Source: Antedon mediterranea
Lineage: Eukaryota > Echinodermata > Crinoidea > Comatulida > Antedonidae
Length of the DNA stretch: 64,000 nt
Reading direction: 5' to 3'
Assembly (NCBI RefSeq): GCF_964355755.1
Contig: NC_092673.1
Span: forward strand, 21,209,001-21,273,000
Both the position numbers and the translations under genes were made by a program. Positions 1-62,675 of the stretch are shown in pieces (the first letter of the stretch is position 1; each line of letters begins with the position of its first letter). The notes beneath the pieces were generated by a model. It had not been told where the DNA came from and did no database searches. It worked only from the letters and a program-made list of their open reading frames with translations.

Positions 1-702
1 GAGCCAGGTAAGTTGTTATATTTATAAATACATTATTCTTAACGTTCTTTTATGGAATTTATTTACATTTAATTATTTTAGCAAATCAAGTTTATAATAA
101 TTATCTTTTGTTAACAGATGATGTTACAGACCCACATCATGAGCCAGGTAAGTTGTTATATTTATAAATACATTATTATTAATGTTGTTTTATGGCATTT
201 ATTTATATTTAATTATTTTAGCAAATCAAGTTTATAATAATTATCTTTTGTTAACAGATGATGTTACAGACCCACATCATGAGCCAGGTAAGTTGTCGTA
301 TTCATAAATACATTATTATTAATGTTGTTTTCTGGCATTTATTTACATTTAATTATTTCAGCAAATTAAGTTTATACTAATTATCTTTTGTTAACAGATG
401 ATGTTACAGAACCACGTCATGAGCCAGGTAAGTTGTTATATTTATAAATACATTATTCTTAACGTTGATTTATGGGATTTGTTTTTATTTAATTATTTAA
501 GCATATCAAGTTTATAATAATTATCTTTTGTTAACAGATGATGTTACAGAACCACACCATGAGCCAGGTAAGTTGTTATATTCATAAATACATTATTATT
601 AATTTTGTTTATTTACATTTAATTATTTTAGCAAATCAAGTTTATAATAATTATCTTTATTTCTAGCAGATGATGTTACAGAACCACACCATGAGCCAGG
701 TA
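1..702 (+). repeat. Tandem array of 30-nt micro-exons with their introns
   Basis: Five complete units and the end of a sixth lie head to tail with a period of about 140 bp (exon starts 118, 258, 398, 538, 670). Each unit has a pyrimidine-poor acceptor ending in AACAG or AGCAG, a 30-nt exon and a perfect GTAAGT donor. In phase 1 every exon encodes DDVT(D/E)P(H/R)HEP, so any number of units keeps the frame open. The other two frames are stopped or unrelated to the downstream frame. Introns are nearly identical between units, so the unit duplicated as exon plus intron. The array runs off the left edge of the window. Confidence 0.85.
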
Positions 703-3700
703 AGTTGTTATATTCATAAATGTTTTATTTCATAATTGTAAGAGTGTCTAGAAAACACAGATCTGATTATTGTCCTATATATATAATATATATATATATA
801 TAAATCTGAAGGCAAATTACTGAAAATAATAACAATGCTATATATATACATATATAAAAAAGTCAAATCGACAAAAGAATCGTTTTATTATTAATAAGAG
901 GGTAGTGCGGTCAATTTGCATAAAATGCTGGTACAGTATATTTCAGATATTCATGATATAAGAACACTATTCAATGACTGATTGTGCATAATGCATAAAC
1001 ATTTTATTTATCTTTAAATCTCCCCGCAATAGCCTAAATATATAGGCTAACATAACTTTGTAGTTTGCATTACATTATGACAAATATTTTGATATTTTGA
1101 TATTTTTAAAAAGGTAAACAGCAAAGACGACACACTGGATTTGCCAAGATTGAAAACGTCGGCTATAATTCGCCAATTACATTTTCTTCGTCGGAGTCTG
1201 AGGTTTCTCTAAATAATCTCGAAAAAGGAACAAAAAACATAAACAATTTATTTAGTTCGGATTTGGACAACCAAGGTTTGTTATTAATTTTACAAAACCT
1301 ACTTTATCCTTGTGTGACACACATACATTTTAATGTCGAAAAACTAAATTTATTTTCATTTTCAAAATGTTTACTTATCGATCTGAAATTCTATTTTTAT
1401 AGTACGAAAAAACAAAACAACCACTATAGTATCCATATCATCTGATTTTGATGACTTAATACCACAGGTTGATGCTACAGACTTTCCCTCCGATTCTTTC
1501 CATAAATGTGATATGATTTCCATATCTCCACTTTCCACAACCAACAACGAAAAACAAACAGACACATAGAGGGCGACAATACAAAAAAAAAATTATTCAA
1601 ATTTGTTTTCGGTATTTAGCATTTTTTACCTCCGCCAAGGAGGTATATGTAATCGATCGCGTGTGTTTGTTAGTTTGTCTGTCTAGACAGTTTGTTTGTT
1701 TGTTAACAGGATTACTCAAAAAGTAATTACAAGGTCTTTACCAAAATGAATGTACAGATAGATATGTGGTCAACGACCATTCCATTAAATTTTGGGACCA
1801 TTTCGGACCACGGTCCCAATTCTGGACCACTTTTTAGTATACTTTTCAGACCTGCTAGTGTTAAAAGATAGGACAAAATTTTTCAAACGCCGGCGAGCAG
1901 TCTTAAAGTAACAAGTAAACTGTAATTGAATTTTCTCGAAAACTACTTGTCCAAAAAACTTCATTTTTGTACAAGAGGCAAGAGTTCTAATTTCTGATTT
2001 GTAATTTTAAAACATAATTTTATTTAATGTGCACATTTTTTGATGCGAGTAGTTTAAAAAAGCCTATTTCTTTTCAAATTCACTCGTTTGATTTTCGCGT
2101 TGCTGTTCTTAGTCAACTGAAGCTATTGTTAATTGTTGAAAGGCTTGTTACATAACCATTACACCAAACTCGTATACATATGCTTGTATTTAAATTAGCC
2201 TAAATCAGAACACACAAATATATACAGTATATATTTTTTTTTTACCGGAGAAATCTTATGTAGGAGAATTTTACAGTAGGCGGAGGTATGCACTCTCAGA
2301 GTGGCTTTCTAGTTTATTTTGTTTTTGGTTGTTTTCGGTTTGTGTTTGGTTGCTTTCGGTAATTAGACTGACCATTTTTGTTGTTTTCGGTTGTTTTTTT
2401 TATTGTTTTCGGTAATTAGACTGATCCTACATTATTATTAATGTTGTTTTCTGGCATTTATTTACATTTAATTATTTTAGCAAATTAATTTTATAATAAT
2501 TATCTTTGTTTATTAACAGATGATGGTAAGTTGTTATATTCATAAATACAGTTGTTTTATGGCATTTATTTACATTTAGTTTATAATAATTATCTTTTGT
2601 TAACAGATGATGTTACAGAACCACATCATGAGCCAGGTAAGTTGTTATATTTATAAAATACATTATTTTAAACCTTTTTTTATGTATGTTATGTATTGAA
2701 TTTGGCATTAAATTAAAATCCCTTTTGAGATTTGTTGTTAATCACCACATTGTTGAAACCAAAGAATTGTGTTATTAACCACATTGGTTTCTCTCATCTG
2801 TCTTGGATAAAAGTTTTACATTTTAGAATTTTATATGCACCTATTTATATTATTTATTCAGTAGATGAAGGGGATGATGAAATGGAAAGTGATTGTAAGT
2901 AATCTGAAATGTATTCAACTAAAGGGCGGTCCTATCCTTTATATAAAAAAATTTAAAAAAGTGTATGACCGATTTTGTTAGCCCTGGTTTTTAGTTATGC
3001 AAAAAAAATAACTTCTTGATAAAATGTTAAAATATGTATAGTTTATGAATTGTAAGATAATATTGCATGGGATTTCGCTCTGTGCCCATTAGAAATTCTG
3101 CAGTGAATGTTTTCTATTTTGTCATTCTAATTTGGTTTTCTTTACTTTGTGTTTATATTATAATAACAGTATGTACTACATACATTATAACAATTACTTT
3201 TCATTTTTTAGTTGATGATGATGAACTTTTAAATCTATGTAAGTACATAATTGTAAACGATAAAAGAATTGATTTAGTTTGCACAGCGTAGAAAAAGATA
3301 CAACAAACAATACAGAAAGTATAAAGCATACAAGTTAGATAAATAAGTTCAAAATTTGTTCAAAACATGGATGGGAGCAGTGGACCATCCGACTCAAGCC
3401 ATTTCAAATCAATGGGAGCACTTAATGCCGACCTACAGGGTATATAGGCTGTAAATATAAAGGTATATCAAATTGCCCCAGCTTAAGTTAAATCCCCATC
3501 TTTCCCCTTGCTTGAGCTATTGGGTAAGTGTTGTTTCTGTAGCAAAATGTGAATGTAAAAATTAGTAAAATAGACAAATTTTTATTCTAGCTGAACTAGA
3601 TATATCCTGGACAAAGGATGAAAGCTGTGAGTATACTAATTGTTTATTATTAATACGTAATAAGAAATGTATTAATATGTAATAAGAATAATTTGTTTGG

Positions 3701-6700
3701 TAACCGATGAATAAATAACAATACGTAAAAAAAGGCTGCAAAAATAGTAATGAAATAAGACAACATACAGAATGTAACTACTGTATATATCATGAATAAA
3801 GTGTTTTGTAATACAGTAAACATTAAACAACTTACCGTAACAAATATTAAAAACAAAGTTGTCTAGCATTCATATTATCATCTTATTATTATCATATAAA
3901 TTATTCTGCAGCCAAACTAGATGTGTCCTGGATAAAACAAGAGACTTGTAAGTACATAATACAGGATTGGAGTACTGTTATGGAGGATTCTCACAAATTG
4001 CCTTGCTATTTACCTATATCTTATTAAATAATTATATTTATTCACTTACCAAGATGGGTTAGAATTAATTTATATGATTCAATATTGGTAATCAATGAAA
4101 TATAAAATATAATTACAGGAATTATTAAAAATTAAAATTAACTTTCATTTATTATCAATAGCTATTCAGAATTGTTATTATACAAAGGATTTGGCTGTTA
4201 AAGGTAACTACTGTTTTAAAAACCAAAGTTAACAAACTGCATGAATGTTTAAAGTGATACATACAGTAATGAAGCTAACAATAACAAGCTATGAAATACA
4301 CAAAACATTATAAGTGAATGGTACTGCAATATTTACTAATTACTGTGCTATAAAACAAGTTAAATTGCTAATTTAAAATCTATCAATGGCATAGAAATGT
4401 CTATATTCAATTATTAGTATCAAAATGAAGCTAACCTTCAGATATAATTTAAATATTGTAAAGTAAATTTTTCTTATATTAAATTTAGCTCTTGATTCAG
4501 CTTGGAATTTAAGTCAATTGGACCAATGCCTAGTCAGTAAGGTATCCGGTATTCAGGTTTTTAAAAACGACCTATCCACCATTCGAGATTGGCTATCAGA
4601 CAAGGTAAACATGTACTACTTAATTATTGGTTATCCGCTCTCTCTAATTGTCAATTTTTTTTTTTTTTGCTATTATTTTTTCTTTCTGCCATCTTTTTTC
4701 TAAAACTTGCAATCATAACATATCGTAAATTTCTTAACATATTGACATTTATGTTCTGCCTACATTTTCATAACAATTGTACACTTGTCCAAAGTGCAGG
4801 TTCAAATGTAATATGTATTTGTCCATGTACAGACATGTATTTTTCACTATAATTTTTGTACAAAAACAAACCACTTAAAAATACTGTAACTTCACACAGT
4901 AATTAGTCAACAACAAAAATACACCAGAAATTAAAACCACCTTTTAAATCTTTCAGGTAATTGACGTATTCCTAGAAATACTAGTTCTCCGAAACACGGT
5001 AAGTGGTGGTTCTGTGTTGTTTTAAAGGTTGAATTGAAATTTACTGAAGATGTGTTTATACTGTATTCCCAAGAAGCATAGATTATAATATTCATTAACA
5101 ACCATACATATATTATTACACATTTATAGAATGAATGTTTAGTGTTTCTAAGTTTGATAGTTCTTTATAAAGTATTTAAAATTATTATGTTTCATTCATT
5201 GTTCCAGTAGTCTTAGTGTACTTAATTGTGAATAGCATATTATCTTTTACAGGAAAAAAAAATACTAAGGATAGAATCTGTCATTTTGACAGATATTCTT
5301 AATGGTTCATGCAAACCAAGTCACTTAAGGAAGGTATGTATCATGACACAAATAACACATTTATTGATAATAAAAAAAACTGCTTTATTGATAGTTTATA
5401 ATTTATAAAGCACAAACAAATTTATAGGTCTTCCAACAATAAACAATTTGTTCTTAAACTAACTATTCAATGAAAAATAGTTAATTAATAAACAGGGATA
5501 GATGCTGTTTGGGTTTCTTTATAAGCTATAGTTTGTGTTATCAACTTTCTATTGTGTAGTAATGCTAAAAAAAACACTACTACTGCACAGTACTAAAATC
5601 TCAAGTAACATTTTAAAAATAGAACTATGCTACAAAATTTAAAACTGTTTTTAGGTCATATTATGACTAACTTTTTTTTTATATATGGTAGGTTGATTTC
5701 TCCAATTTTGATACCATAATTGGTGGGTTACATGAACCAGGCCATTGGACTTTTATAGTAAGAAGGTTTTATTCAAACTTATTCATGATTGTTAATTACA
5801 AAAGTCTTTTGTTAAAGAATTTTATTTTCAGTCCTGTGAATGTTTTGATAACAATTATTATACTATTTCAGATTGGATACCCAGAGCAGAATCTGCTATT
5901 ATATCTAAATCCCCTAGGAGAGTTGCAGGAAAAATGCACTAGCATTAAAGCTAATTGGAAGTAAGTATTGATGTTACAATGTGGCTGGCAGGCTGTAGTA
6001 TCATATAGAAATGATTGTAAGACAAAACAGTTTATGATAGGTAAATCATTCTGTGAATTATTGAAAAAAACATCTAAATATGTACAACTGTATACTAATA
6101 ATTATTATAACTTTGCCTAAAAATGTTTTGCTAAATTAACTAAATTTTATGATTTTCAATATTGATAGTATTTAAAAAATGGCACCTCCTCTTTTATTTT
6201 TTTTATTTCCATAAGTTGACATTACTTAGTTAACCTGTAAGATAATTTGTCTGTGTTCGATGTCATTTTTTGTTTCAGTCTGTTTATGCAAATTAATGAG
6301 TAGTTAATATGGCAATCAGCATGTTGGCAATAGTTCACTGTTGGTGCGGATATCAATAAATAAACAAATTATCAGACTTTCCAATCTATAAAATGTTGTA
6401 TGTATTGTTTCGTTCACAGTAAATTCATGAAAATGAGATTTAACACCAATGCACCAGGAGGAAGTGCACAAAGGTGGGATGTGTCCACATCTGTGCATGC
6501 CAAACAGAGGGACAGTTCTTCTTGCGGCATTTTTGTACTCAAGGTAACTAATATCTAAAAGTAATATTAAATAATTATAATAATAAGGAAGATGTAATTG
6601 TCATAATGGTAATAAAATATTGGAAAATAAAATAGTTATTAAACCTGTTTTTTCCTAAGTTTGCAGAGGCTTTTATAGAAAGTAGAAGTTTAAAATTTGC

Positions 6701-7871
6701 AACAGACTCTACATCTATATTACAGTACAGGCATGAAATTGGAGTACAGATATTGATGGCATCTGGTAAATTATAGTTTTATATTCTTGATATTTCAAAT
6801 TTTACTAAAAACAAAAAAGTAACAAAAATGTCAGACAAAATGCCTACCTAATGTTTTTTGTATTTACAAAAAAATCCTAATTTTTGAATTTATCTTTCAG
6901 AAAATTTAACACCATATTGCCGGTTTTGTGGTAATGAGGAGGTACCAAGTGGTCTGTATGAAGAAGAGACAAGACCCAAACCCAAATCAACACAGTGGGT
7001 GCGTAATTATCACTTTTTGGAATTTAATGATAATAATGCTACTAATTTCAAATGTTTTCTTTTTCTGGTTTTGATATTAAAATATTTATAGCTATAATTG
7101 TGAAGAGTTATCACTTAAGTCATCTATCAATACCACATACTAATATGAGAGATAGAAGGGAAGGGGGAGCAAGAGGGTGGTAATTTTTAAATAAATACCC
7201 CTATTTCATCTGCCTGTCTTTTTACCCCTTGAAATGTACTACCTTTTAGTCTTTAAACCGTTATGTATTCATTTTAATGTTGTTATCAACTATTCAGGGT
7301 ACAATGCACAAATCTGTTTGAGATATAAAATCAAATTTCATTTTTATTTGTTAAAAATTAGGTTGCATGTGACACATGTCACAAATGGTACCACCAGGAT
7401 TGTTTAGATGTGCCAAAAACAAACTTTTCATCAGAAAAAAAATTCATTTGCAACAGCTGCAAAAATGAACAGCAGCAGCAACAACAACATAAAAGAAAGC
7501 AGCAACACCCACAACAAAAACAAAAAGAGCCGCAGCAGCATCAACCACAACAACCACAGCAGCAACCATATGAACTTGTAAATATAACTAACAGAATTAA
7601 AAAATGCAAGGGATGCAGAAATTATTTCAAAAAACCAGTAACTCCACCATATGACTTAGTGATACGGCACAAAGAAAAACTACATTTTTACAATCCAAAA
7701 ACTCAAACACAACAACTGGGAAATTTACAAAATGTTTATTATCACCCCAAAATTAAATGTGTGCAAATTTGCCACCCACAATTCCAGGCCAAAGACCTAG
7801 TCCTGTCAGAAGGAACAAAATTAAAGTCTGCCCACAGACATCTCCTAAAACGCAGGGGATGGGTGCTATAA
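1..7871 (+). CDS. Ulp1/SENP-like cysteine protease with PHD finger (5' end outside window)
   Basis: Exons read by eye: <1-7, 118-147, 258-287, 398-427, 538-567, 670-699, (optional 1114-1275), 2520-2525, 2607-2636, 2862-2894, 3212-3238, 3591-3626, 3912-3947, 4162-4203, 4489-4604, 4957-4998, 5253-5333, 5692-5757, 5872-5960, 6420-6543, 6660-6765, 6901-6998, 7362-7871. All phases agree, giving 532 codons in the window without the optional exon. Exons 4957-6543 carry the C48 fold: GHWTFI (catalytic His), LYLNPLGE (Asn at the usual Asp position) and Q-R-D-S-S-S-C-G-I-F (oxyanion Gln and nucleophile Cys). Exons 6901-6998 and 7362 onward form a C4HC3 PHD finger (YCRFC, VACDTC, WYHQDC, FICNSC). A Gln-rich tract follows, then a C-terminal domain with CKGC, PPYDLV and NVYYH. 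Known family role: removal of SUMO or a related modifier. The PHD finger suggests chromatin binding. Either a host gene or a domesticated transposon gene; the substrate is unknown. Confidence 0.75.
1114..1569 (+). other. Two candidate alternative exons encoding SIM-like motifs
   Basis: 1114-1275 is a 162-nt open segment with a symmetric phase 1-1 fit to the micro-exons. The acceptor is weak (AAAAAG before GT) and the donor is GTTTGT. It encodes residues including ITFSSSESEVSL. 1403-1569 begins after TTTTTATAG, continues phase 1 and ends at a TAG (1567-1569). It encodes TTIVSISSDFDDL. Both contain a short hydrophobic run followed by Ser/acidic residues, as in SUMO-interacting motifs. The second exon would give a short isoform lacking the protease and PHD. 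No AATAAA was seen close behind the stop, so it may be a dead exon. Confidence 0.4.
1627..2315 (+). mobile_element. 'CCTCCGCCAAGG' dispersed element, copy 1
   Basis: Starts with ACCTCCGCCAAGGAGG and ends with GGCGGAGGTATGCACTCTC, followed by AGAGTGGCTTTCTAG. The same sequence recurs at 22310-22750 and, reversed, at 54690-55890. The interior has a GTTTGTTTGTCTG run and a conserved GGATTACTCAAAAAG block. I see no intact open frame. It is a dispersed repeat, probably non-autonomous; the class is not clear from this window. Confidence 0.6.
2440..2640 (+). repeat. Displaced continuation of the micro-exon array
   Basis: Two more units of the array lie 1.8 kb downstream. One has a normal 30-nt exon (2607-2636). 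The other is reduced to a 6-nt exon (ATGATG, 2520-2525) between an intact AACAG acceptor and an intact GTAAGT donor. Both keep phase 1. The gap from about 730 to 2430 holds two possible alternative exons and a dispersed repeat, so this looks like an array split by insertion. Confidence 0.75.
7467..7564 (+). repeat. CAG/CAA-rich tract coding a Gln-rich linker
   Basis: Mixed CAG and CAA codons, with AAA and CAC interruptions, encode a Gln/His/Lys/Pro-rich linker between the PHD finger and the C-terminal domain of the protease-PHD gene. It is in frame and likely variable in length between individuals. Confidence 0.8.
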
Positions 7872-8020
7872 CTATATTTTGAAATAATTTCTGCATCCCT
7901 TGCATGTTTTTAAATGTATTTTTATTTGTATATGTATTTGTATATGTATTTTTAAAGGGACAGCTGGCCTTTGGGTCATAGAGATATTTTTTCTTTAGCT
8001 GTCCCTTACCATTTTTGGTA

Positions 8021-12777: not shown

Positions 12778-12976
12778 AGAGGGGGGGTTGAAAATTATGG
12801 GCGGATTTATGTTAATAAATAACCGATGACGTCATTTGATTGACACAAGGGGGGTTGAGAATTATGGGGAGGTTGGATTTCTTAGAACAGTGGCACCAAC
12901 AATGTCGTGAAAAAATAGCGAGGGAAAAAATGTTCTTAAAAAAAACAATTCATTTCTTTCCAAATGCCAATCATTT
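12778..12976 (+). promoter_or_regulatory. Putative promoter / 5' UTR of the SIMC1-like gene
   Basis: A perfect CRE palindrome TGACGTCA at 12827-12834 lies 143 bp before the start codon. It sits between two copies of a G-run followed by TTGA(A/G)AATTATGGG (about 12780 and 12850). No TATA box is evident. The extent of transcription is inferred from position only. Confidence 0.4.
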
Positions 12977-54689: not shown

Positions 54690-55890
54690 CCACTTCGAGA
54701 GTGCATACTTCCGCCTACTGTAAAATTCTCCTACATAAGATTTCTCCGGCAAAAAAAAAATATATATTTGTGTGTGTCTTAATGCTGTGTGTGATTTAGG
54801 CTACTACAAGCATTGTGTATGCGAGTTTGGTGTAATGGTTATGTAACAAACCTTTCAACAATTAACAATATAGCTTCAGTTGACTAACAATATACGAAAA
54901 TCAAACGAGTGAATTTGAAAAGAAATAGGTTTTTTAAACTACTCGCATAAAAAAACCTGCACATTAAATCAAATTATGTTTTAAAATTTCAAATTACAAA
55001 TTATAACTCTTGCCTCTTGTACAAAAATGAAGTTTTTGGACAAGTAGTTCTCGAGAAAATGCAATTTAAGTTTATTTGTTAATTTAAGACTGCTCAGCGG
55101 CTTTTGAAAATTCTGTCCTATCTTTTCACACTAGCAGGTCTGAAAATAATTCTAAAAAGTGGTCCAGAATTGGGACCATGGTCCAGATTTTCACCAAAAA
55201 TGGGCAGTGTCGTCCTTGCACCAGTCGACATGTATGGCAGTAATTTGGAGTCATTCGAATCAAAATTGTGAGCGCTAGAGTGATGACAAACAAACAAACA
55301 AACACACACACACACAAACCAAACAGATCAACATACTTGGCCAATTTTCAATTTGGCCAAGTAACAAACAGACAGACAAACCAAACAGATCAACATACTT
55401 GGCCAATTTTCATTTGGCCAAGTAACAAACAGACAGACAAACCAAACAGATCAACATACTTGCCCAATTTTCAATTTGGCCAAGTAACAAACAGACAGAC
55501 AAACCAAACAGATCAACATACTTGCCCAATTTTCATTTTGGCCAAGTAACAAACAGACAGACAAACCAAACAGATCAACATACTTGGCCAATTTTCATTT
55601 GGCCAAGTAACAAACAGACAGACAAACCAAACAGATCAACATACTTGGCCAATTTTCATTTGGCCAAGTAACAGACAGACAAACCAAACAGATCAACATA
55701 CTTGGCCAATTTTCATTTGGCCAAGTAACAAACAGACAGACAAACCAAACAGATCAACATACTTGCCCAATTTTCATTTGGCCAAGTAACAAACAGACAG
55801 ACAAACCAAACAGATCAACATACTTGCCCAATTTTCATTTGGCCAAGTAACAAACACACGCTACCAATTATACATATACCTCCTTGGCGG
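54690..55890 (-). mobile_element. 'CCTCCGCCAAGG' dispersed element, reverse copy with internal minisatellite
   Basis: The left edge AGAGTGCATACTTCCGCC and right edge ACCTCCTTGGCGGAGGTAAA are the reverse complement of the copy at 1627-2315. Its GTTTGTTTGTCTG region has expanded into the minisatellite at 55318-55857. Confidence 0.65.
55318..55857 (+). repeat. Minisatellite, nine copies of a ~60-bp unit
   Basis: The unit is AACCAAACAGATCAACATAC, TTG(G/C)CCAATTTTCATTTGG, CCAAGTAACAAACAGACAGAC. Copies start at about 55318, 55379, 55439, 55500, 55562, 55622, 55681, 55742 and 55802. Most units contain a small palindrome (ACTTGGCCAA ... TTGGCCAAGT). Confidence 0.85.
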
Positions 55891-60650: not shown

Positions 60651-61035
60651 ATCATGTTTGTTGTCTATATCTGCATCCAAGAACTTTGTACGCATGCCCA
60701 CTGGTGTGGAAACTCCGTCGTGCGCGTCTTTACTACCGGTTTCTTTGTTGTTTTTCTTTTATTTGTGTTTTACACGTGTGTACAATGTCAGTATTTGTTT
60801 ATATTATAAACCCTAGCCTTGACCTGCTTTTGCAAAAGGAGGATATAGAATCTCATTAATTACAATTTATAGATTTAAATTAGGGTTTGAATGTTTATAT
60901 TTATTTTAATGTTATATACTGTAGGCCACATCCTTTATCGAAAATACCTCAAATATTACACGTGATTTTTGTTAGCCTACTCAATATTTTTAAACTTTTA
61001 AGTACTTCCAGTCGTTTGTTTGTTTTGAGAAAAAT

Positions 61036-62675
61036 GTCACTAAAGGGGGTGTCCTGAATATAAAGATGCCACTAATAGGGGTGTTATGTCCTGGATATAA
61101 AGATGTCTCTAATAGGGGTGTCCTGAATATAAAGATGTCTCTAATAGGGTGTCCTGGATATAAAGATGCCACTAATAAGGGTGTCCTGAATATAAAGATT
61201 CCACTAATAGGGGTGTCCTGGGTATAAATATGTCTCTAATAGGGGTGTCCTGTGTATAAAGATGTCTCTAATAGGGGTGTCCTGAATATAAAGATGCCAC
61301 TAATAGGGTGTCCTGGATATAAAGATGCCACTAATAAGGGTGTCCTGTGTATAAAGATGTCTCTAATAGGGGTGTCCTGAATATAAAGATTTCTCTAATA
61401 TGGGTGTCCTGAATATAAAGATGTCTCTAATAAGGGTCTCCTGAATATAAAGATTTCTCTAATAGGGGTGTCCTGTGTATAAAGATGTCTCTAATAAGGG
61501 TCTCTAATATAAAGATGTCTCTAATAAGGGTGTCCTGAATATAAAGATGTCAATAATAGGGGTGTCCTAAATATAAAGATTTCTCTAATAGGGGTGTCCT
61601 AAATATAAAGATGTCTCTAATAGGGGTGTCCTGTGTATAAAGATGTCTCTAATAAGGGTCTCCTGAATATAAAGATGTCTCTAATAGGGGTGTCTTGAAT
61701 ATAAAGATGTCTCTAATAAGGGTCTCCTGAATCTAAAGATGTCTCTAATAGGGGTGTCTTGAATATAAAGATGTCTCTAATAAGGGTCTCCTGAATATAA
61801 AGATGTCTCTAATAGGGGTGTCCTGAATATAAAGATGTCTCTAATAGGGGTGTCCTGAATATAAAGATGTCTCTAATAGGGGTGTCCTATGTATAAAGAT
61901 GTCTCTAATAAGGGTGTCTTGAATATAAAGATGTCTCTAATAGGGGTGTCTTGAATATAAAGATGTCTCTAATAGGGGTGTCCTGAATCTAAAGATGTCT
62001 CTAATAAGGGTCTTCTGAATATAAAGATGTCTCTAATAGGGGTGTCCTGAATATAAAGATGTCTCTAATAGGGGTGTCCTGAATATAAAGATGTCTCTAA
62101 TAGGGGTGTCCTGTGTATAAAGATGTCTCTAATAGGGGTGTCTTGAATATAAAGATGTCTCTAATAAGGGTCTCCTGAATATAAAGATGTCTCTAATAGG
62201 GGTGTCTTGAATATAAAGATGTCTCTAATAGGGGTGTCCTGAATCTAAAGATGTCTCTAATAAGGGTCTCCTGAATATAAAGATGTCTCTAATAGGGGTG
62301 TCCTGAATATAAAGATGTCTCTAATAGGGGTGTCCTGAATATAAAGATGTCTCTAATAGGGGTGTCCTGTGTATAAAGATGTCTCTAATAGGGGTGTCTT
62401 GAATATAAAGATGTCTCTAATAGGGGTGTCTTGAATATAAAGATGTCTCTAATAGGGGTGTGCTGTGTATAAAGATGTCTCTAATAGGGGTGTCTTGAAT
62501 ATAAAGATGTCTCTAATAGGGGTCTCTTGAATATAAAGATGTCTCTAATAGGGGTGTCTTGAATATAAAGATGTCTCTAATAGGGGTGTCCTGAATATAA
62601 AGATGTCTCTAATAGGGGTGTCTTGAATATAAAGATGTCTCTAATAGGGGTGTGCTGTGTATAAAGATGTCACAA
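61036..62675. repeat. 32-bp satellite with 256-bp higher-order period
   Basis: About 50 copies of AAAGATGTCTCTAATAGGGG plus TGTCCTGAATAT. Variants (CCTGTGTAT, TCTTGAATAT, AAGGGTCTCC, GAATCTAAAG) recur in order. The GAATCTAAAG variant appears at 61726, 61982 and 62238, exactly 256 bp apart, which is eight units. The left part is more diverged than the right. Confidence 0.9.

Follow-up and report, generated by a model that had tools for sequence, protein, structure and literature searches.

The Ginger1 DNA transposons encode an integrase of H2C2, rve and GPY/F regions followed by an Ulp1 domain, and one Hydra family also carries a PHD finger (PMC2836005). In the sections of that description used here, the C-terminal protease is of the Ulp1 or OTU type, sometimes with a PHD finger, the inverted repeats measure about 40–270 bp, the 4-bp target duplications are CCGG or CCGT/ACGG, and the elements, introns present (0–4), are about 2.6–7 kb long (PMC2836005). 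The products of schistosome MEGs are secreted or membrane-anchored, and MEG-26 has an internal duplication, according to the part of the MEG literature cited (PMC5825161). For spider silk genes, the excerpted source reports a proposal that the intron aids unequal exchange (PMC9779670). Symmetric micro-exons are already known, and so are exon-intron repeats that have been homogenised. We found no report of both combined in a transposon in the exon-array, micro-exon, silk and Ginger1 literature, a search of mostly open-access papers.

The locus described here begins upstream of, and continues into, a 64,000-nt window of the Antedon mediterranea genome (C4:21209001-21273000, contig NC_092673.1), and was compared with the searched assembly of 354 Mb in 18 contigs. 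The gene on contig C4 and its paralogue on contig C1 are like Ginger1 in domain order, inverted repeats, 4-bp duplications and introns, and unlike the elements in the cited sections in their size (30.4 and 25.6 kb), their exon number (46 in the C4 model), their micro-exon array and their long internal tandem repeats (PMC2836005). They share a Ginger1 integrase with introns with the host genes Gin-1, Gin-2 and Imagin, but have inverted repeats, unlike those genes as the excerpted accounts present them (PMC2836005; PMC12863088). Like schistosome MEGs they contain runs of short symmetric frame-neutral exons (6–36 bp in MEGs), whereas the portion of the MEG source cited mentions no homogenised array of one exon-intron unit (PMC5825161). 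In MEGs most of the coding sequence consists of short symmetric exons; in the C4 gene the array and short linker exons account for only ~900 of some 3,430 coding nt. The likeness to spider flagelliform and MaSp2 silk genes is that exon-intron repeats are homogenised together, but the silk repeat exons are, in the part of the source cited, structural rather than 27–30-nt micro-exons in a transposase gene (PMC9779670).

The C4 gene model comprises 46 exons (7 + 25 + 14) with a predicted product of about 1,143 residues, an arithmetic count of 1,103 from the zinc-finger exon onward plus 40. The reading frame is open across the model, and the domains run in the order H2C2, rve and GPY integrase, array, short phase-1 exons, Ulp1/C48 and PHD. 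Six exons 5' of the array encode the H2C2 zinc finger, rve core and GPY region, with Pfam matches to Integrase_H2C2 (1.6e-17) and rve (4.2e-15). The DDE residues (GIDLMGP, SDNGKEF, 35 residues, then E) and a GPY/F motif (NFSGPYIV) were seen by eye in the translation; Pfam gave no GPY/F match. The first exon has its ATG at position 4364 of the 10-kb stretch adjoining the window upstream (L007, C4:21199001-21209000) and its phase matches that of the zinc-finger exon, as it does in the C1 paralogue. A candidate 35-nt second exon (L007 4606-4640), which threw the remaining gene out of frame, was dropped because in C1 nothing intervenes between the first exon and the zinc-finger exon, whose phases match; without it the C4 join is in phase by arithmetic. 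The initial annotation had placed the array ahead of a protease domain, and C48 and PHD exons do follow downstream. The Ulp1/Peptidase_C48 region (Pfam 2.6e-11) spans seven exons at window 4489..6765 (+), and the last two exons (6901..7873, +) encode the PHD finger (Pfam 1e-07), a Q-rich stretch, a C-terminal Cys/His region and the stop. His, Gln and Cys of the protease are kept in C4, with Asn at the usual Asp position. An Rfam search of the window at gathering scores gave no match.

Reading AG-exon-GTAAGT along the upstream stretch and the window gave an array of phase 1-1 exons, of which 24 measure 30 nt and one 6 nt. The first begins 2,412 nt 5' of the window; 17 array exons are complete in the upstream stretch, which ends 23 nt into the 18th. 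Inside the window the last 7 nt of that exon (1..7) are followed by six full 30-nt exons, at 118..147 and 258..287 (both DDVTDPHHEP), 398..427 (DDVTEPRHEP), and 538..567, 670..699 and 2607..2636 (all DDVTEPHHEP), the last being the final array exon, and by one exon reduced to 6 nt with frame and splice sites intact (2520..2525). Each lies on the + strand in phase 1-1, between an AG acceptor and a GTAAGT donor. Tandem Repeats Finder reported a 140-bp unit at window 1-721 (5.2 copies, 91% matches). About 1.7 kb of other DNA (722..2428, edges approximate, by eye) separates these copies from two further units, one of them that with the trimmed exon, after which a shortened intron gives a spacing of 111 instead of the usual ~140. 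AG, GTAAGT and a 30-nt exon were present in 23/23 contiguous C4 units, and the two units past the insertion also keep AG and GTAAGT (exons of 30 and 6 nt). The initial annotation had described at least seven ~140-bp units at 1-2636, each with its own acceptor, GTAAGT donor and frame-neutral phase-1 exon. The in-window exons, seven full or partial 30-nt exons and the 6-nt one, agree with that count and structure; the array is present at that position, but it is split at 722-2428 and most of it lies 5' of the window.

Five short exons on the + strand follow the array. The first is a 30-nt phase-1 micro-exon with an acidic product (DEGDDEMESD, 2865..2894). Next come phase-1 micro-exons of 27 nt (3212..3238) and 36 nt (3591..3626), both with intronic flanks conserved in the C1 paralogue, then a 36-nt phase-1 micro-exon resembling the preceding one in sequence (3912..3947) and a 42-nt phase-1 exon (4162..4203). 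The sequence GTAAGTACATAAT occurs at three C4 linker donors (L007 7409, window 3239, window 3948) and at the C1 27-nt exon, and is absent from the donor at window 2895; it may be the trace of an older exon duplication or a common splicing signal.

The C1 paralogue (~C1:2118.8-2131.9 kb) has the same ordinary exons as the C4 gene. Protein identity was 42–60% over the three parts compared, and synonymous sites were saturated (pS 0.79–0.90, pN 0.26–0.36). An array occupies the same position in the gene, with a unit exon of 27 nt encoding DNITEPQEP. All 25 core units had AG, GTAAGT and the 27-nt exon. At the edges four more units were usable by reading (24-nt exon; donors GTAGGT, GTAAGT and GTATTT), and three lacked the usual 27-nt in-frame exon. 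A third locus, at C2 24.2 Mb, has three units; it also carries an inserted element, and a deletion there extends into the last protease exon. None of the exon indels seen shifts the frame: the exon at window 2520 has lost 24 nt, and the C4 and C1 units differ by 3 nt.

Both genes lie within elements with terminal inverted repeats. The C4 element, about 30.4 kb (C4:21191445-21221889), encloses the array gene between a left repeat at L019 2445-2485 (C4:21191445; TGTTCTAAGAAATCC...) and a 41-bp right repeat at window 12849..12889 (-) that is 97.6% identical to the left. Its flanks, GCGG on the left and GTGG on the right (window 12890-12893), differ by one mismatch. The C1 sister element (25.6 kb, C1 2.11/2.13 Mb) bears the paralogous gene and has 55-bp inverted repeats (98%; end sequence TGTTCTAAAATTTTAGG...). 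Long tandem repeats occur inside the ends of both. When only the neighbourhood of the gene was searched, C4 gave no inverted repeats and C1 a 42-bp inverted match; a host gene without terminal repeats is ruled out by the element ends further out at C4 and at C1. C1-type ends recurred as five inverted pairs (C1 2.11/2.13, C1 13.18, C7 4.30, C6 16.86 and C3 24.78 Mb) and C4-type ends as three (C4, C2 6.83 Mb and C11 14.22 Mb). Perfect 4-bp target duplications surrounded 4/7 readable elements: ACGA at the C1 gene-bearing element, ACGG at C7, ACGG at C3 and GCGT at C6. The flanks of the C2 6.83 Mb element (ACAC/ACGC) have one mismatch, the flanking 4-mers at C1 13.18 Mb do not match, and the C11 14.22 Mb element, its right end not read exactly, falls outside the seven. 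Of the CCGG or CCGT/ACGG targets given in the cited Ginger1 sections (PMC2836005), ACGG accounts for two of the four perfect duplications; the other two share only a central CG. From these sequence features we classify the C4 and C1 loci as Ginger1-type DNA transposons, which may still be mobile.

Six of the eight recurring end pairs enclose no such gene. Among them are C7:4303801-4312121, C6:16856004-16868034, C1:13178190-13190644 and C3:24782231-24797349 (C1 type), and C2:6830204-6841663 (C4 type). None of the six examined had an integrase or Ulp1 match at E 1e-3 or contained the array unit. The five listed are 8–15 kb long and filled largely with tandem repeats. Long tandem repeats are present in 6/6, with a unit of ~94 bp in the C1 type and 187 bp in the C4 type. 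The 94-bp unit includes part of the terminal repeat. We take these gene-less elements as non-autonomous relatives.

At least four integrase loci exceeded 75% identity (C4, C2, C4 15.47 Mb and C1) among the 150 of 592 candidates scored. The C4 15.47-Mb copy had been considered a sign of segmental duplication on account of a shared satellite; this was dropped, and the copy more likely represents a decayed element because the satellite sits inside the element. Genome-wide unit searches, which may miss matches, matched C4, C2 and C1 only, and the idea of a repeat family spread across the genome was set aside on that result. Loci at C3 3.53, C4 13.33 and C8 17.5 Mb, and integrase genes at C4 14.89 and 12.56 Mb (6 kb each), had no array unit or 27/36-nt micro-exon above the maximum of 20 shuffles, with one score equal to that maximum (C8 17.5 Mb, 27-nt exon). 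For the relative at C7 4.29 Mb the comparison was confined to protein sequence. In the locus at 12.56 Mb, another Ginger1-like gene or remnant, a 60-bp tandem repeat of 7.2 copies within an integrase-core exon (L012 780-1208, C4:12555780-12556208) duplicates ~20 residues around the first catalytic Asp. Elsewhere in the window, tandem repeats of 32 bp (61030-62671; 51 copies, 90% matches) and 61 bp (55301-55856; 9 copies, 96% matches) were observed.

Variation within the arrays was measured over 22/23 contiguous C4 units and 24/25 C1 core units; two C2 units were aligned too, and the C2, edge and beyond-insertion units were left out of the counts. Mean unit identity was 92% within each array. 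Exon length was constant among aligned units and intron length varied (C4 102–114, C1 102–122). Diversity was 0.044 in exons vs 0.081 in introns for C4, and 0.062 vs 0.080 for C1. The proportion of variable columns did not differ significantly between exon and intron in C4 (5/30 vs 24/92, p = 0.34) or C1 (7/27 vs 28/90, p = 0.81), in tests whose units and columns are not independent. As the exon was not significantly less variable than the intron, and 9/12 exon changes (counted from the exon lists) alter residues, selection on the peptide was not seen. Core splice columns (donor 6 plus AG 2, both arrays) varied in 0/16 cases vs 52/182 for the intron body (Fisher p = 0.008, treating columns as independent and leaving out the intron tail before AG). 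This invariance applies to core units only; C1 edge donors include GTAGGT, GAAAAT and GTATTT. The closest copies were often 3–8 units apart, as multi-unit block exchange would give. The initial annotation had called the array recent or homogenised. Exons are indeed homogenised along with introns, but recency applies to the copies now present and not to the design, which is old: the unit and its intron are common to a paralogue diverged to synonymous saturation.

The C4 and C1 consensus units agree at 21/27 exon and 59/90 intron positions. Their array-intron consensuses align at a score of 30 (shuffle mean 14.7, sd 3.6, maximum of 1,000 shuffles 26.5), and 528/528 individual array-intron pairs score ≥21.5. 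Scores ran from −2.5 to 12.0 for 13 homologous ordinary intron pairs, compared at their ends only, and from −3.0 to 18.5 for the C4 array intron against 14 ordinary C1 introns. We also compared exon flanks in 17 exon pairs, setting each real pair against 272 mismatched pairs. For 40 nt downstream, mismatched pairs matched the real pair in 0/272 cases for the array exon, 0/272 for the 27-nt exon and 2/272 for the 36-nt exon; the upstream values were 25/272, 2/272 and 8/272. With 60-nt flanks the counts in the same order were 0, 0 and 0 downstream and 0, 6 and 0 upstream, against a minimum of 10 for ordinary exons. The result depends on flank length, a 25-nt flank being weaker downstream of the 36-nt exon (26/272). 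One of the 14 ordinary exons came close (E3 downstream, 2/272), and the 42-nt exon at window 4957-4998 showed no flank conservation in this test. We read the flank conservation as probable constraint for splicing very short exons. Its main rival as a source of intron likeness is gene conversion or recombination between the C1 and C4 families. Tandem repeats are conversion-prone, and the three units on C2 provide a third locus. However, units are far more alike within arrays (92%) than between them (intron 59/90, exon 21/27), and the single-copy 27- and 36-nt exons behave like the array exon, and there the blastn match stops close by (26 and 38 nt outside the 27-nt exon, 23 and 19 nt outside the 36-nt exon), leaving the introns uncovered. 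We therefore regard conversion between families as improbable.

The splicing of the array exons themselves would be in question if the array were a minisatellite in a large intron, its exon-like segments unspliced and intact only because the copies are recent. Exon columns that vary about like intron columns and units about 92% identical are what this would predict, and tandem-repeat amplification is common here, in both gene-bearing elements and in 6/6 gene-less relatives (187-bp and 94-bp arrays). Yet the unit, splice sites and intron are common to a synonymous-saturated paralogue, the exon indels seen are frame-keeping, the single-copy micro-exon neighbours also have conserved flanks, and the gene-less relatives lack the unit, so that an unspliced minisatellite appears unlikely. 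Alternative inclusion of real exons is compatible with the favoured reading given below and would add regulated or stochastic skipping, one element giving a ladder of linker lengths in the manner of schistosome MEGs. Phase 1-1 throughout the array and in the five short exons after it would make skipping harmless, and the three C1 edge units without a 27-nt in-frame exon would need to be skipped or spliced otherwise; the uniform GTAAGT donors, on the other hand, give no sign of regulated skipping. We entertain alternative inclusion tentatively, as a possible though not the favoured addition.

We consider it likely that the units are real coding micro-exons, spliceable and in frame, that expand by unequal exchange into an acidic linker of a Ginger1-type transposase. 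Each 140-bp unit carries one micro-exon that is symmetric (phase 1-1) and has both splice sites complete. Through the repeated introns, unequal exchange or gene conversion would add, remove and homogenise units, and the frame would hold whatever their number. The units would encode an acidic, Pro-rich and probably disordered linker that connects the integrase half to the Ulp1-PHD half. On this reading residues would be less constant than frame and spliceability, and the constancy would extend to intronic sequence next to the micro-exons. The initial annotation had suggested metal binding by the His-containing decapeptide. This was unsupported, and we reject it as a general function, as the C1 unit (DNITEPQEP) has no His. 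A flexible acidic spacer between the two halves seems to fit better, because the C4 decapeptide and C1 nonapeptide share acidic and Pro residues and not His.

The transposase thus probably lengthens its internal linker through copying of whole exon-intron units. We would stop just short of favouring the stronger proposal, a serious possibility, that micro-exon and conserved intron with its splicing signals form a self-expanding module in which a new copy works at once, a design kept by two families since before synonymous saturation. Splicing is usually difficult for exons this short. With 48 intact core units, two diverged genes and single-copy neighbours, kept and free intronic positions are visible, and the signals for splicing a 27–30-nt exon are therefore directly testable. 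For the Ginger1 family, these elements extend the size range to 25–30 kb and may offer a route by which a transposase grows an extendable linker. If the self-expanding module is real, linker length would change by recombination without risk to the frame.
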